From the NCBI RefSeq assembly GCF_000179575.2, contig NC_015636.1, positions 721,495-785,494 on the forward strand: a DNA stretch of 64,000 nucleotides, given 5' to 3'. Below, piece after piece: positions 20,661 through 27,143 of the stretch; the stretch's first letter is position 1, and each line of letters begins with the position of its first letter. A program made the translations under genes and the position numbers. Source of the DNA: Methanothermococcus okinawensis IH1. Lineage in GTDB: Archaea > AGJL01 > Methanococci > Methanococcales > Methanococcaceae. Under the pieces are notes generated by a model, which made no database searches, had not been told where the DNA came from, and saw nothing but the letters and a program-made list of their open reading frames with translations.

Positions 20661-21782
20661 TTATTCATATTTAAGAGCTTCTATAGGGTTTAACTTGGAT
20701 GCTTTATATGCAGGATATAGTGCAGATATTATAGAAATACTTATACCAATTATTACACTTTTTATTAAGATATAAATTAAATCTATCATAGGTAATATCA
20801 TACCATTGCCATAGTAATATAATACAATTTGACCAACAATTAAACTAAGTATTATACCAATTAAACTACCAACTGCCCCTAGTATTGCTGATTCATAAAG
20901 AAACAAAACTATAATGTCCATTTTAGACGCCCCAATACTTTTCATAATTCCAATCTCTTTTGTTCGTTCGATTGTTCCCATGATTGTTATATTTGCAATA
21001 CCCATTCCTGAAATTATTAAAGATATTGCACCTATTGACGATAAGAAATTAGTTATGGTATTTAGTGTAGAGCTCATAACTTTAAATAAATCTTTCATTG
21101 TTATTATCGATATTTTATTATTATTTTTGTCCATTGCTTTTTTCAATTTAAATATTGTGTTGTTGATTTTATGCTTATCATTTACAATTACTACGATATT
21201 AGAACAATTACTCCTGCCATAGAATCTATTGTATGTTTTTTGTGATAAGATAGCATCACTATATGGAATTGTTAAGTGGCATATTCCAGCAATTCTAAAA
21301 GATATATTATTTATATACACCATATCTCCTTTTTTTAGTCCATATCTTTTTGCAGTGATATTGTTAAATATGATTGATGTGTCCGTTAATTTTGGTATTT
21401 CGTTGCTTTTATCATTTTTGATGTTTTCTGATTTTTCCAATATATACATATCTCCTTTTTTAATTCCAGAGATTTTTATGTATAGTTTTGTCCCATTTCT
21501 TAAGCAAATTATGTTATCTGTGGAATATATCGGAATTGATTTATCTGATAATTTATTTATGATTTCAATATCCTTTTTTGTAAATCCTTGATTATCCAAA
21601 GATGATAAAATAAGTATATTATTAGCAAAGTTTTCATTTGAAACATTTTTATTAACACTTGTTCCAATAATTCCAAAAATGGTAACCATAAAAATTCCTA
21701 TTATAACCCCTAACACTGCCAAAGTGGTTCTTAACCTATTACTCTTTAAGTTTCTTACTGCCATTTTTAGATATATTTTCAT
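20661..21782 (-). CDS. MacB/FtsX-type ABC transporter permease
   Basis: A 373-residue permease of the MacB/LolC/FtsX type. It has an N-terminal membrane helix (LRTTLAVLGVIIGIFMVTIFGIIGTS, 18-43), a large extracytoplasmic MacB-like domain (about 44-240), and three C-terminal helices containing the FtsX signature (IERTKEIGIMKSIGASKMDIIVLFLYESAILGAVGSLIG). It ends in YPAYKASKLNPIEALKYE, the typical coupling tail. Such permeases work as mechanotransmitters or exporters of peptides and lipoproteins with a LolD/MacB ATPase, which is encoded two genes upstream. It is the last gene of the operon and a paralogue of the preceding gene, about 29 bp away. Confidence 0.88.
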   Translation of the reverse strand: MKIYLKMAVRNLKSNRLRTTLAVLGVIIGIFMVTIFGIIGTSVNKNVSNENFANNILILSSLDNQGFTKKDIEIINKLSDKSIPIYSTDNIICLRNGTKLYIKISGIKKGDMYILEKSENIKNDKSNEIPKLTDTSIIFNNITAKRYGLKKGDMVYINNISFRIAGICHLTIPYSDAILSQKTYNRFYGRSNCSNIVVIVNDKHKINNTIFKLKKAMDKNNNKISIITMKDLFKVMSSTLNTITNFLSSIGAISLIISGMGIANITIMGTIERTKEIGIMKSIGASKMDIIVLFLYESAILGAVGSLIGIILSLIVGQIVLYYYGNGMILPMIDLIYILIKSVIIGISISIISALYPAYKASKLNPIEALKYE

Positions 21783-21810
21783 AGTTATCCCAACTATCCT
21801 TACTATACAC

Positions 21811-22899
21811 TTATTTTCTAAGAGCTCCTATTGGGTTTAATTTAGATGCCTTGTATGCAGGATATATTGCCGAAATTAAAGTTAGTAATAGTCCAATGGA
21901 AATTCCATAAACGGCATATTTTAGTGCAAATAAGGGCATATCCAAGCCAATTATATATTTAACTATAATATATCCAGTAGCATAACTTACAATAGTCCCA
22001 ATAATACAACCAATTAATCCTAAAATAAATGCCTCATATAGAAATAGCATCATAATATCTTTTTTTGAAGCTCCAATACTTTTCATAATTCCAATTTCTC
22101 TTGTTCTTTCCACCACATTCATTATCATCACATTTCCTATGCAGACAGATGCTACAATTAATGAAACTCCCCCAATGGCAGACAAAAATAATGATAATTT
22201 ATCTATTATTGAAGAAAGCATGGTTAAAGAATTATACACCACTGCTTTGTTTTCTTTGTTATTTAACAATTTTATAGATTCATTTTTTATTTTCGATTTC
22301 GAATTTTTACTGGTTTTTATTATTATTTTTGAATAACCTGCATTTCCACATATTTGTTTAAATGTATTATCTGAAATAATATAATCCAACCCCAAATTAC
22401 TTAATATATTATTGTTATTCTTTAGTTTTATTATCCTTAATTTTGAATTTTTTAATTTAATATAGTCCCCATTTTTTAAACCGAGATTTTTTAGGCAATA
22501 TGAGTTTATGCCAATTGATGTATCAGATATTTCTTTATTTGTTAATTTTTTCATATTGATTTTGTTTAATCCATATACTGTTATTATCGTTTCATTTCGT
22601 CCTCTATTATATTTCATAACCTCATCGCTGGATAATATAGGAATTATTTCACAGTTGAATTTTTTAATTTCAAGTTTTTTAACATCCTTTTCTGAAAAAT
22701 AAAAATAACCTTGTTTTTTATTAGGTATTATCTCAATATATGATATTTTACCATTTTGCTCATTTAGACCATTTTTTACACTTTCCCCAATTATTCCAAA
22801 AATAGACAATGAAACTACTCCAATTACAATACCCATAAATGCTAAAAAGCTCATAAGTTTATGTCTTTTTAAATTCCTCTTAGCCATTTCAAAATACAT
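21811..22899 (-). CDS. MacB/FtsX-type ABC transporter permease (paralogue)
   Basis: A 362-residue permease with the same plan as its downstream neighbour: N-terminal helix (LMSFLAFMGIVIGVVSLSIFGIIGES), extracytoplasmic domain, and three C-terminal helices with VVERTREIGIMKSIGASKKDIMMLFLYEAFILGLIG and a C-terminal YPAYKASKLNPIGAL. I place the start at ATG 22899, one base after the ATPase stop, because GAGG precedes it at the right distance; an in-frame TTG lies 4 codons upstream. Two paralogous permeases suggest a heterodimeric channel served by one ATPase. Confidence 0.87.
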   Translation of the reverse strand: MYFEMAKRNLKRHKLMSFLAFMGIVIGVVSLSIFGIIGESVKNGLNEQNGKISYIEIIPNKKQGYFYFSEKDVKKLEIKKFNCEIIPILSSDEVMKYNRGRNETIITVYGLNKINMKKLTNKEISDTSIGINSYCLKNLGLKNGDYIKLKNSKLRIIKLKNNNNILSNLGLDYIISDNTFKQICGNAGYSKIIIKTSKNSKSKIKNESIKLLNNKENKAVVYNSLTMLSSIIDKLSLFLSAIGGVSLIVASVCIGNVMIMNVVERTREIGIMKSIGASKKDIMMLFLYEAFILGLIGCIIGTIVSYATGYIIVKYIIGLDMPLFALKYAVYGISIGLLLTLISAIYPAYKASKLNPIGALRK

Positions 22900-22900
22900 A

Positions 22901-23578
22901 TTATTCCTCAACTAATTCTCCATCCCTAATATTTATTATCCTATCGGCAACCTTTCCAACATTTATATCGTGGGTAACCATAACAACCGTTTTTCCAGAT
23001 TTGTTTAATTTTTTTAGGAGCTCCATAATTTTAGCACCAGTCTTTGAATCCAATGACCCTGTTGGTTCATCGCATAATAAAATAGGTGGGTCATTTGCAA
23101 GAGCTCGTGCTATTGCCACCCTCTGTTGCTGACCCCCACTTAATTGATTGGGTTTGTGATTTGCAAATTTTTCATCCAATTCAGCCATTTTTAAACATTC
23201 CAATGCTCTTTTTCGTTTTTCTTCCGAGCTCATATTACTTCGATATTTAAATATTAGGGGGAGCTCTACATTTTCTAATGCACTCAACAATGGAATAAGA
23301 TTAAACTGTTGAAATACAAATCCAATTTTCATTCTCCTAATTTCCGTTAATTGGTTATCGTTTAAATCACTTGCTTTTACACTATCTATATATACCTCTC
23401 CATTATCTGGTCTATCCAAACAACCAATAATATTTAAAAGTGTAGATTTCCCACTTCCACTTGGTCCCATAATTGAGACAAATTCTCCCTCTTCTATTCT
23501 TAGATTTACATTATTTAGTGCGTATATTACTTCTTCCCCCATTTTGTAGGATTTTACAACATTTTTTAATATAATCAT
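22901..23578 (-). CDS. LolD/MacB-type ABC transporter ATPase
   Basis: A 225-residue ABC ATPase with all motifs: Walker A GPSGSGKST near 38, Q-loop VFQQFNLIP near 88, signature LSGGQQQRVAIARAL near 143, Walker B ILLCDEPTGSLD near 163 and the switch His in VMVTHDINVG near 198. It belongs to the LolD/MacB group whose structural model is M. jannaschii MJ0796, and probably is its orthologue. It energises the two FtsX-type permeases encoded immediately downstream. The ATG follows GGGGAATT. Confidence 0.93.
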   Translation of the reverse strand: MIILKNVVKSYKMGEEVIYALNNVNLRIEEGEFVSIMGPSGSGKSTLLNIIGCLDRPDNGEVYIDSVKASDLNDNQLTEIRRMKIGFVFQQFNLIPLLSALENVELPLIFKYRSNMSSEEKRKRALECLKMAELDEKFANHKPNQLSGGQQQRVAIARALANDPPILLCDEPTGSLDSKTGAKIMELLKKLNKSGKTVVMVTHDINVGKVADRIINIRDGELVEE

Positions 23579-23599
23579 AATTCCCCTTTATTATTATTT

Positions 23600-25114
23600 T
23601 TATTCCTTTTTTCTTATAAATCCCCTATAAATTAAATAAATCACTCCAATACAAAATAAAAGACCTATTCCAATAACTGCATAATTAATTCCCTCTTTTT
23701 TTCCATTATAATCATTATACGATACTACCTGACCATTATCTATTTTTATCTCCTTGTTTATTGTTATTAAATTGTTGTTTTCATCCCTGTATGTAATTAC
23801 AATTGGAATTTCACTTACATTTCCATTTATCACACAGTGCAATTCAAAACTTCCATAATCATCTGCATTTAATGTTCCTACAAAATAATTTTCGTATGGT
23901 CTTTTTGGGATAATATTCTTTGTTCTTTTAATGCTAACCAATACACTTTTTGCCTTGGTAGTTCCTATATTGGATAAATCCCCAGTAATTGTTTTTTCGG
24001 TTATTCCCTCTATATTTATTCCAGTTAAAACTAAATCAGCCCTTCCTATAACATTTACAGAGATATTTTTATCCACTTCATTTCCATCAAAAATTATTTT
24101 TATGGGGATTTCTTTAACTCCTATCTCATTTACCTTTATTTTAAATGAAACATTTTTGGTTTTTCCATAAGGTATAAAGATAGTTTTTTGATTATTTCCT
24201 AAATAATATTTTTCAATAGATATAATAAAATTAGCATCCTTGTAATTGTTTTTTAGGGATAATGTGAAATTATTCACCTCTCCAACGGGATAAGTGTAGT
24301 TAATTACATTTAAATCAACGGCATTATCTGGAATTACTTTAAATACTAAATTTCCTTTCTCTTCAACAATTTTTTGATTTTTGTAGTTGTATGTGATTGT
24401 ATTGGAATGCCCCTGTTCTGTTTCTGTTTTATCCATTAGTTGTAAATTATCATATGGATTATTATATGTTAGTTCATAGGGTAGTTTTAAAATACCATCT
24501 CCACTTGCATAAATTTTAATCTCCATCAATTTTGTTTGGTGTGGTTTTAAGCCGTCTATATAACCCTCCGATAATGAAAAAATATTACTATTATCGTTGT
24601 TAAATTGCATCTTTATGTTTTTTGCTACCCCTGTTCCCTCATTTGTTATTTTTAAATAGATGGTATTTTCGCCTTCTTTTATTGTTGGTGGATTTTCAAT
24701 TGTAAGTATTGGTTTTCCCCTAATTGGAATAGTAAATATTCTATTTTCTGAATGTTGTTTATTATCCTCTGTATAGTTGCAATATGCCACAATTTTATAG
24801 TCCTTTGACGGAGTATTATCTTTAATTTTTATTATAAAATGACCTACTCCTTTTTCAGATGGAAATAATTGCCCCTCATAATCCTTTCCTTTAATTATTT
24901 GTATGTAATTCTTACTTTCCCCATAAGGATATATGCCTATTACGGTGTTGTTTATCTCCTTTTCTGGTGTGATTACCACCCATAAATCATAGGTCTTTGA
25001 TGGTTCCAAATATTGATTTTTATAGTCAATGCTTGTAAATTCCACTGCATCTATTGTGTTTAAAATTAAAAATAAAGATAAGATAGATAAAAAAATAAAA
25101 AAGGATTTTTTCAT
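23600..25114 (-). CDS. Secreted, membrane-anchored beta-sandwich (CARDB/NEW3-like) protein
   Basis: A 504-residue protein with a signal peptide (KSFFIFLSILSLFLILNTIDA, 3-23), an extracytoplasmic region of about 440 residues made of repeated beta-sandwich-like units (e.g. ENTIYLKITNEGTGVAKNIKMQFNND and VNNFTLSLKNNYKDANFIISIEKY), and one C-terminal membrane helix (AVIGIGLLFCIGVIYLIYRGFI) with a basic stop. The units look like CARDB or NEW3-type domains. In the operon it could be the extracytoplasmic adaptor, a MacA-like role, passing substrate to or from the ABC permeases; that is inference. It starts 4 bp after the previous gene and ends 21 bp before the ATPase. Confidence 0.75.
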   Translation of the reverse strand: MKKSFFIFLSILSLFLILNTIDAVEFTSIDYKNQYLEPSKTYDLWVVITPEKEINNTVIGIYPYGESKNYIQIIKGKDYEGQLFPSEKGVGHFIIKIKDNTPSKDYKIVAYCNYTEDNKQHSENRIFTIPIRGKPILTIENPPTIKEGENTIYLKITNEGTGVAKNIKMQFNNDNSNIFSLSEGYIDGLKPHQTKLMEIKIYASGDGILKLPYELTYNNPYDNLQLMDKTETEQGHSNTITYNYKNQKIVEEKGNLVFKVIPDNAVDLNVINYTYPVGEVNNFTLSLKNNYKDANFIISIEKYYLGNNQKTIFIPYGKTKNVSFKIKVNEIGVKEIPIKIIFDGNEVDKNISVNVIGRADLVLTGINIEGITEKTITGDLSNIGTTKAKSVLVSIKRTKNIIPKRPYENYFVGTLNADDYGSFELHCVINGNVSEIPIVITYRDENNNLITINKEIKIDNGQVVSYNDYNGKKEGINYAVIGIGLLFCIGVIYLIYRGFIRKKE

Positions 25115-25118
25115 TATT

Positions 25119-25649
25119 TCACCTTATAGTATATAATACTAAATTAATTATACCAACCACTATCGCTAGAATTAGTGATTTGTTAAATTTTAGAGAATAG
25201 GTATATTGAATGCCTTTTGCCCATATTAAGCATGCCCATATTGTAAATATAATATATATTAAATAATTCAGCCATTGAGGCATTGGTGAACCCCCATTTA
25301 TATAATTCAACATATCTATTATGATATCACTAAATGCTGTTATTATGTAACCATATGCAATAATTTCAAATATCTTTTTAAATGAAATATCTTTTAATTT
25401 TGTAACATATAATAATACATCTATTATCATTGTATCTAACAATATAAGTAATAATAACACCATAATTGAAATAATTACAACGATTATTGTTGTTGTAGGT
25501 TGGCAATTTCCTTTAAGGGTAAGTAGGGATAACGCAGATGCAAATGTATTTAATAATATTGCAATTAATGGGACATAACGATTATAAGGTCTAACCCCTA
25601 CATTTTGAAAGAATTTATCTGGATTTATTATTAAATCTATTATCTTCAT
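25119..25649 (-). CDS. Yip1-like polytopic membrane protein
   Basis: A 176-residue protein beginning MKIIDLIINPDKFFQNVGVRPY, the amphipathic lead-in of Yip1/DUF1282-type proteins, followed by five likely membrane helices (around 28-45, 52-76, 92-115, 128-144 and 155-174). Function in archaea is unknown. It lies between the SpoIIM-like gene (16-bp gap) and the large secreted protein (4-bp gap), so it is part of the same exporter operon. The ATG follows GAGGT. Confidence 0.7.
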   Translation of the reverse strand: MKIIDLIINPDKFFQNVGVRPYNRYVPLIAILLNTFASALSLLTLKGNCQPTTTIIVVIISIMVLLLLILLDTMIIDVLLYVTKLKDISFKKIFEIIAYGYIITAFSDIIIDMLNYINGGSPMPQWLNYLIYIIFTIWACLIWAKGIQYTYSLKFNKSLILAIVVGIINLVLYTIR

Positions 25650-25665
25650 GGTATACCTCAGTTAT

Positions 25666-26220
25666 TTATGTTAATGACAGCAATGTTGGTGTTATATATG
25701 CTTCTATAAATGCGGCTATTATAATTAATGATAATGAAAGTAGGGACATGCAAAAAATTTCACAAATGTCTTCTTTTGTCATTAATTTTTCTTTTTTATC
25801 CAATAGATATAATATTAGGTTAGATGGTATTTTTAACCCTACTGCACCAGCTAAAATAAATCCTGCAAATTCCAATATACCATGTGGAAGAATACCTGCA
25901 ATAATATATGTTATTTTTGTTCCAGAAGCGATAAATGATACATAAAATCCATTTATAAACAATAGATAAATATCCAATATGCCAAATACTAACACACCAG
26001 ATATGAGTTTTATATATACCGTAATGTTATTATATAATATATCCCAAAAAGATAATGTTGTTAACGAATTCAAATGCATATAATTGATAGATGATTCGTT
26101 TATTGGAAAATTGTGGGATGATGATATATATAATACATGCCCCATAAATATTCCGAAGGTAAAACTTAATATTGCGATAATAATTGGAATTGAAACTTTA
26201 TATTTACCATATATGTCCAT
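25666..26220 (-). CDS. SpoIIM/DUF95 family membrane protein
   Basis: A 184-residue polytopic membrane protein with about five helices. The pattern FWDILYNNITVYIKLISGVLVFGILDIYLLFINGFYVSFI ... ILPHGILEFAGFILAGAVGLKI is characteristic of the SpoIIM/DUF95 family (the PHG/E-x3 turn is the family hallmark). Members of this family are found in sporulating bacteria and, relevantly, in circular-bacteriocin clusters, where a DUF95 protein is needed for production and immunity. Here it directly follows the small secreted peptide gene (48-bp gap), which is the basis for the system proposed under findings. Confidence 0.82.
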   Translation of the reverse strand: MDIYGKYKVSIPIIIAILSFTFGIFMGHVLYISSSHNFPINESSINYMHLNSLTTLSFWDILYNNITVYIKLISGVLVFGILDIYLLFINGFYVSFIASGTKITYIIAGILPHGILEFAGFILAGAVGLKIPSNLILYLLDKKEKLMTKEDICEIFCMSLLSLSLIIIAAFIEAYITPTLLSLT

Positions 26221-26268
26221 ATTTTTACCCTTGCCTCTAAAAAATAAAAAATAAAAACTAAAATATTT

Positions 26269-26610
26269 TTACCATATTAGTGCATTTATGGATGGGTTCC
26301 ATATATATGAAATATATTTTGCTGCCATAGATATAATTCTCCCGTATTTTGTTGGGAGTTTTGCTTTTGATATATCATTTAGTGTTTTATAGCCCTCTTC
26401 TTTTAAATATTTTAAGAAATCTATAACTGCAAGTCCCGTGTCCATATCTACATATCCCTTAGCAATTAATATGTATATTGCATCCCCTGTATCTTTGGAT
26501 ATAGTTGATACAGATGTTTCGCTTGAAATACTTGCAGGTGTAGCAAATACCGCTCCTACCATACATAGCATAGCCACAGCAGCGAAACCTTTAAGTATAT
26601 TTAAGTTCAT
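26269..26610 (-). CDS. Small secreted peptide precursor ending in NALIW, bacteriocin-like candidate
   Basis: A 113-residue precursor with a strong signal-like N-terminus (basic K7, hydrophobic FAAVAMLCMVGAVFA to about residue 23, then TPAS). The remaining 90 residues are mostly helical with two hydrophobic stretches (AIYILIAKGYVDMDTGLAVIDFL and RIISMAAKYISYIW) and end PSINALIW. The mature parts of the circular bacteriocins AS-48 (VIAW) and uberolysin (AVIW) end similarly with a Trp used in head-to-tail closure. The ribosome-binding site AGGAGGTGA is the strongest in the operon, consistent with an abundant product. It heads the DUF95-Yip1-adaptor-ABC operon. Alternatives are a structural or signalling peptide; no homologue with known function is recognised. 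Confidence 0.55.
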   Translation of the reverse strand: MNLNILKGFAAVAMLCMVGAVFATPASISSETSVSTISKDTGDAIYILIAKGYVDMDTGLAVIDFLKYLKEEGYKTLNDISKAKLPTKYGRIISMAAKYISYIWNPSINALIW

Positions 26611-26654
26611 GGTTTATTCACCTCCTTTAATTTTAAGGGAGTAATTTTCTCTAA

Positions 26655-26727
26655 GGCTCAGAACCCTTTGGGTTTATCATCGCCAAGGTCGGCTCCGAAT
26701 AGTTCCCACCTATTCATCATCGCCGAC
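26655..26727 (-). ncRNA. Structured leader with two tandem K-turn (box C/D-like) hairpins
   Basis: On the minus strand two hairpins follow each other. Hairpin A (26727-26688): stem GUCGGC/GCCGAC, internal loop GAUGAU opposite GGA, upper stem GAAUAG/CUAUUC. Hairpin B (26684-26655): stem GGC/GCC, internal loop GAUGAUA opposite CUGA, upper stem AACCC/GGGUU with an AAA loop. The GAUGA/CUGA internal loops match K-turn or box C/D motifs, which bind L7Ae in archaea. The island is far richer in G+C than its surroundings and ends 45 nt before the peptide gene start, so it is most simply a 5'-UTR regulatory element; a free-standing C/D sRNA is the alternative. Confidence 0.6.
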
Positions 26728-26829: not shown

Positions 26830-26857
26830 TATATATATATATATATATATATATATT
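26830..26857. repeat. (TA)14 dinucleotide repeat
   Basis: Fourteen uninterrupted TA units in the divergent spacer upstream of the peptide operon. A perfect repeat this long is prone to slippage and could vary in length between strains. Confidence 0.9.
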
Positions 26858-27143
26858 ATGATTTAAATTAAATAGAAAAGTATTTAAAATAAGTTTAATT
26901 TATGAAATTTTGTCAATTGATATTTTTATTAATTAAAATACATAAAATTAATTTAAAATGAGAAATAACCAAACCAGAGCTCCTATTAAATATAACCAAA
27001 GACGAAATTTTATGACCCTTAACTATTTAAGATTATAATTATAATCAAATATTATATTATATGATTAGATAGGACATATTAAATTAGTAATTTCATTAGT
27101 TCTGTCTGAACTATATATAATAAACTATATAATAGGGCATATT

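Follow-up and report, generated by a model that had tools for sequence, protein, structure and literature searches.

In Methanothermococcus okinawensis IH1, an operon headed by a gene for a small protein is preceded by two consecutive hairpins, which raises the question of whether this element is a leader acting on the operon mRNA through the kink-turn (K-turn) protein L7Ae, a riboswitch, or a box C/D-like small RNA. All three readings had been put forward in the initial annotation of the window (the whole stretch of 64,000 nucleotides analysed here), where twin hairpins with K-turn loops were placed 45 nt before the peptide gene with the strand unstated. The element is present at that place on the minus strand, running from 26728 to 26655 (Table 1), and the measured distance to the peptide ATG (26610) is 44 nt.

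Table 1. Features of the leader and its operon, with positions in the window.
Feature	Position	Strand	Description	Basis
K-turn hairpin 1	26688..26727	minus	outer stem GUCGGC/GCCGAC (6 bp), bulge GAU, G.A/A.G, U.G; apical part: inner stem GAAUAG/CUAUUC, loop GUGGGAA	sequence, folding, covariation
K-turn hairpin 2	26655..26684	minus	GGC/GCC, bulge GAU, G.A/A.G, U.U, inner stem AACCC/GGGUU	sequence, alignment with 8 other twins
TATA-like run, presumed promoter	26830..26858	minus	about 100 nt upstream of hairpin 1	sequence
Shine-Dalgarno (SD) sequence	26618..26626	minus	AGGAGGUGA, complementary to the 16S 3' end GGATCACCTCCT	
Shine-Dalgarno helix	26622..26641	minus	CUCC (26638-26641) with GGAG (26622-26625)	
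Proposed regulated gene, 113-aa small protein	26269..26610	minus	conserved signal-peptide-like start MNLNILKGFAAVAMLCMVGAVFA	
SpoIIM-like membrane protein (PF01944)	25666..26220	minus	second operon gene	domain match
Yip1-like membrane protein (PF04893)	25119..25649	minus		domain match
Exported protein	23600..25114	minus	CARDB similarity weak, under the curated cut-off	domain match
ABC transporter ATPase	22901..23578	minus		domain match
Two permease genes	20661..22911	minus	20661-21782 and 21811-22911	

Hairpin 1 reads AGUCGGC-GAU-GAU-GAAUAG-GUGGGAA-CUAUUC-GGA-GCCGACC, with GAU.GAU opposite GGA, and hairpin 2 reads GGC-GAU-GAU-A-AACCC-AAA-GGGUU-C-UGA-GCC, where the first inner pair (4b:4n) is an A.C mismatch. 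Both have the standard kink-turn layout, that is, a C stem, a 3-base bulge ending in U, the pairs G.A and A.G, and a second (NC) stem. The folding energy of the 83-nt region is -27.1 kcal/mol against -18.2 (sd 2.8; z = -3.2), none of 200 dinucleotide shuffles being as good, and when four other copies in the same genome served to build a covariance model, the window copy, which had been left out, scored 77.9 bits (E = 2.4e-15). The twin K-turn hairpins are thus confirmed by sequence, folding and covariance.

DNA similarity alone identifies eight copies of the element in this genome, seven of them at C2:441-466 kb, and all eight stand upstream of genes: seven precede proteins with a common signal-peptide-like start (six small, one of 292 aa) and one precedes a DUF4855-like protein. 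The first covariance model, made from four copies, found the element in 4 of 22 genomes of the family; a single-hairpin model then reached the sister family, and a third model the short-stem type. Read in context, the covariance searches place leaders adjoining genes in 15 of 36 Methanococcales genomes, and peptide genes are present in 16, the sixteenth (G019) having a truncated K-turn fused to the gene. At 42 of the 51 places matching the peptide profile a strict K-turn lies within 230 nt of the peptide gene, and at two more (G030, G026) the model found a K-turn with a single mismatch. Two of the 51 are cut by contig ends, one of which retains the 3' half of a hairpin, and the leader is therefore found upstream of 44 of the 49 testable peptide-family genes. 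The five testable places without an intact K-turn are G019 (truncated), G021 (in-frame stop), G028 (degenerate) and two marginal protein matches (E = 0.008). Five further copies, which were found via the RNA and so are no test of the gene association, precede DUF4855-like genes (G000, G026, G031) or genes for a secreted surface-like protein (G028, G033). In total, the strict search, which itself fixes positions 2b, 2n and 1n, was positive in 47 of 56 leaders.

The DUF4855-like protein behind the K-turn leader (L009:9697-10646, L146, L147) has no signal peptide and occurs in two Methanococcales families; in G000 its gene is split into two frames. The secreted proteins preceded by a K-turn hairpin (L145, L148) include one with WxLIP_PGBD/Fn3-like domains (L145). 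One copy in G024 (L059:1538-1720) retains the K-turn leader, but its peptide is out of frame with the closest ATG, and the gene is probably decaying.

Beyond the order, model R3, run with stricter filters, matched 16 of 394 archaeal genomes at E <= 0.001, of which 13 are Methanococcales; the other three fall within or beside reading frames that belong to unrelated genes and appear to be chance matches. The phylum-level search covered the same 36 genomes, and four weak R3 matches came from genomes without peptide genes (G006, G012, G023, G034). Among the weak 52-73 nt matches of model R2, L052 is a true leader, six (L040, L042, L053, L054, L055, L057) have no peptide gene and look like ordinary C/D sRNAs, and three (L044, L045, L058) look like chance. 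Five of these six (L040, L042, L053, L054, L055) correspond to a conserved box C/D sRNA-like RNA of 65-73 nt, closed by a UUGGC/GCCAA stem, in Methanocaldococcaceae-type genomes.

In 31 distinct inner-stem segments, chosen by their K-turn letters only, so that pairing was not selected for, pairs 1-5 are 94.8% Watson-Crick, whereas 2000 shuffles of the partners gave 54.3% on average and 70.3% at most. In these segments pair 2 is A-U, C-G or G-C, pair 3 is A-U, C-G or U-A, and pair 4 is C-G or U-A. When the two groups are aligned with MAFFT, pairing of the inner helix is complete (100%) in each, and double-sided changes affect 2 pairs in one group and 3 in the other; the outer stem includes a change from C-G to U-A. 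Across the nine twins 95.2% of the cells pair, slid controls reaching at most 45.5%; the exceptions are three cells of one outer pair, which are C.A, and the mismatch of the window's hairpin 2. The conservation of pairing, for which a covariance check in Methanococcales had been suggested, is therefore found in the relatives, with compensatory changes, and on this comparison of sequences the paired positions are under selection while the stem sequence and the loops change freely.

What does remain constant across the family is the GGC stem, the GAU bulge with L3 = U, and the tandem G.A/A.G, which together form the L7Ae recognition surface. In 34 distinct strict hairpins L3 is always U, the bulge is GAU in 30 and UGU in four, -1b is C in 31 and 1b is G in 33 (two copies of the window's genome carry A at 1b), and the pair 3b.3n is U.G in 17, U.U in seven, U-A in five, C.U in four and A-U in one; 2b = A, 2n = G and 1n = A were required by the search and are not independent evidence. 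The loops, of 4 to 9 nt, are unconserved. A fixed K-turn with free loops and stems is the pattern expected of a site for a K-turn-binding protein, and L7Ae would be the candidate binder.

An anticodon-mimic or T-box-like role was considered because the 7-nt loop of hairpin 1 in this genome resembles or complements an anticodon loop; the loops of the relatives have no common pattern, and the idea was rejected. A short upstream frame MKNYRDNKENIKTLFKNIKEK is open in some leaders, upstream of hairpin 1 (L020 and relatives), and might be a relic or an A-rich coincidence; as a conserved feature an upstream reading frame was discarded, its frame and stops not being kept across copies on inspection by eye.

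The same K-turn letters occur in archaeal box C/D sRNAs (Rfam sR46 and others), which have GAUGAU(GA)...CUGA and GGC/GCC closing stems, and a guide sRNA that overlaps the leader, or arises from it by processing, has to be weighed. No Rfam 15 family matched at or above its gathering threshold; the top matches were C/D sRNAs on the correct strand, namely sR46 (21.6 bits, E = 0.006) and sR-tMet (16.8 bits), both below the gathering value of 50, and the twin does carry C, D, C' and D'-like boxes. However, its 'guides' are self-complementary and fold back on themselves, the longest complement to 16S or 23S rRNA is 8 nt, no better than in shuffles, and the tandem fold is more stable than the closed C/D fold in all nine twins at 37 C, with one tie at 65 C. 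Moreover, the family includes many single-hairpin leaders, which have no second K-turn, so that the C/D plus C'/D' set exists in twin copies only, and unlike the sRNAs its members stand in front of genes. This option, which the initial annotation had left open, is disfavoured, and we regard it as very improbable.

The reading of the K-turns as part of a leader does hold. In none of 47 leaders does a TATA-like site separate the hairpin from the gene, and the intervening stretch could not accommodate one together with a ribosome site; the element should therefore, as judged from the sequences, lie inside the peptide mRNA as part of its 5' UTR.

The linker between hairpin and gene has a structure of its own. 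In the window the SD sequence lies 28 nt past the last hairpin and is paired in the SD helix listed in Table 1. Taking the 47 hairpin leaders, minus three without ATG at the given place and with identical linkers merged, 35 distinct leaders are obtained (one without a recognisable SD); an SD helix of at least four Watson-Crick pairs is present in 23 of these 35, which are related to each other and not independent events, compared with 6.1 expected from shuffled linkers and with 2 of 46 ordinary genes in the same DNA. Matched variants of the helix are CUCC/GGAG, CACC/GGUG, UCACC/GGUGA, CCACC/GGUGG and CCAC/GUGG. A partition-function test of SD pairing gave a weak result (mean paired 0.70 vs 0.59; 3/34 below 0.05), and in the four leaders of other genes with a located start (G026, G028, G031, G033) no SD helix was found.

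A leader position combined with an SD helix would also suit a riboswitch, and K-turn-containing riboswitches are known (PMC3124441), so that a small-ligand riboswitch, tandem or single, could use the K-turn as a scaffold. Nevertheless, in the 34 distinct hairpins the inner stems and loops vary and no nucleotides suggestive of a ligand pocket are conserved beyond the K-turn; Rfam returned no riboswitch match. A switch in which a K-turn stem pairs alternatively with the linker is not apparent either, with no excess complementarity and no mutually exclusive pairing (5' strand mean 4.65 vs 4.81 shuffled, 0/40 below 0.05; 3' strand 4.13 vs 3.51, 1/38). The riboswitch suggested at the outset is thus kept as an improbable reading.

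By analogy with known systems, the element is probably a cis-acting leader that is bound by L7Ae and controls the translation of the export peptide. In Sulfolobus, L7Ae acts through leader K-turns to repress other mRNAs as well as its own (PMC5539422), and the addition of L7Ae folded every k-turn analysed in the experiments described in PMC6298567. The genome studied here encodes two PF01248 (L7Ae-family) proteins. Its own l7ae leader (L149) contains AUGAUGAUAUGAGUGG and an upstream CCACUC, and perhaps has a k-turn of its own.

The mRNA of the peptide operon would start about 70-100 nt upstream and carry, in this order, one or two K-turn hairpins, the SD helix and the start codon. Abundant L7Ae, which is able to bind any standard K-turn, would bind the hairpin or hairpins, and plentiful free L7Ae would, most likely, by the Sulfolobus precedent, lower translation, so that the output of exported peptide would depend on the status of ribosome and sRNP assembly. 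What the sequence comparison itself establishes is the conserved pairing with its K-turn letters, the leader position, the SD helix and the confinement of the element to one set of genes; L7Ae as the binder, translation as the controlled step and a negative effect are all three postulated by analogy, the negative sign being the least certain.

The l7ae autoregulatory leaders of Sulfolobus, Archaeoglobus and others, as presented in the parts concerned of PMC5539422 and PMC6298567, are likewise archaeal 5' UTR elements with a GAU bulge and G.A/A.G near the SD. In those leaders, however, the ribosome site lies in or next to the k-turn, which by prediction or experiment does not fold unless protein is present (PMC6298567), whereas in the present family the SD is separate from the K-turn and has a helix of its own further downstream, the stems are longer, the hairpins may be one or two, the targets are exported peptides, and the family is conserved with compensatory changes. 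Applying the folding rule given in PMC6298567, as set out there, protein-free folding is predicted for most copies (3b = C or 3n = G in 21/34, -1b = C in 31/34), and therefore the on/off logic proposed for l7ae would be removed here. The sRkB RNA of P. abyssi, as described in the section of PMC3124441 dealing with it, is also derived from a 5' UTR and has two K-turns, and its gel shift with L7Ae is abolished by mutation of G.A; it differs in being 216 nt long, in having its K-turns in separate stems of one fold, and in adjoining an ATPase gene.

The main rival to translational control is that the K-turn RNP acts on the stability, processing or localisation of the mRNA, for example by protecting its 5' end. 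The last hairpin lies mostly 23-48 nt before the start codon, at or beyond the limit of the ribosome footprint, which together with the predicted pre-folding of most K-turns (by the same rule, in the part of PMC6298567 that gives it) fits such a role. Against it, most peptide leaders combine the K-turn with an SD helix, which points to translation, and we consider this rival unlikely, though a serious one.

With regard to the genes under the presumed control of L7Ae, the scanned peptides match no family of Pfam, NCBIfam or PHROG at a meaningful score, and so no bacteriocin family. An AlphaFold model of one peptide (L068) had a mean pLDDT of 61 and was unusable; a search of genome contigs for peptide relatives returned one locus, and none was found in viral contigs. 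We provisionally take the two permeases to be MacB/FtsX-like, and the combination of SpoIIM, ABC and MacB genes presumably resembles that of circular-bacteriocin operons, which is only suggestive. Cassettes of the SpoIIM-like arCOG01996 with a SalXY-type transporter nearby have been described as archaeal dark matter (PMC5898192, PMC4158269, in the passages devoted to them). As in the operon studied here, these cassettes comprise SpoIIM-like, Yip1-like and small membrane proteins with a SalXY-type ABC transporter in Methanococcales; the difference is that those passages (PMC5898192, PMC4158269) describe proteins only and make no mention of a leader RNA.

In the window's genome (L010, C2:456000-470000) there is a tandem array of five short peptide-SpoIIM cassettes, in which the signal peptide is near-constant and the mature peptides are strongly diverged; the genome also carries a broken duplicate of the 504-aa exported protein encoded in the window's operon (20661-26610). 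It might be argued that the leader has no RNA function and has been copied together with the promoter and the signal-peptide region as a recombination cassette, given that copies within this genome have promoter, leader and signal peptide in common, as gene conversion predicts. Across genomes, however, the flanks diverge and the K-turn persists with compensated stems, and it also precedes genes without that signal peptide, which makes this explanation scarcely credible.

Translational control through L7Ae could extend to a whole regulon, in which the free L7Ae pool, read by pre-folded single or tandem K-turns, would set the output of an entire, rapidly evolving class of antimicrobial-like peptides that are exported, together with that of a few cell-surface proteins; this wider proposal is tentative, and we put it at somewhat less than an even chance. 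If true, peptide warfare or surface remodelling would be tied to ribosome assembly in Methanococcales. Control of mRNAs by L7Ae has so far been shown for few genes, mainly l7ae itself, and here one K-turn leader with compensated stems stands before dozens of exported-peptide genes in two Methanococcales families, so that the leader family offers a ready-made candidate for an archaeal post-transcriptional regulon. No description of such a leader was found in the open-licence papers searched. Moreover, the family supplies naturally occurring K-turns, single and tandem, in which the ribosome site has a helix of its own, and these would provide a model for translation control without covering of the ribosome site.

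The tandem arrangement, which had been singled out as the point of interest of the locus, is real, but most relatives have a single hairpin, and the broader finding is the candidate regulon of K-turn leaders. Twins are a variant, with two strict hairpins in 9 of 47 leaders, and single hairpins are more common; in the window copy and two of its array neighbours the second hairpin has one mismatch. The stem sequences of the twins fall into two unrelated sets, the first in G000, G009, G015 and G020 and the second in G029 and G035, and the tandem form may therefore have arisen more than once.
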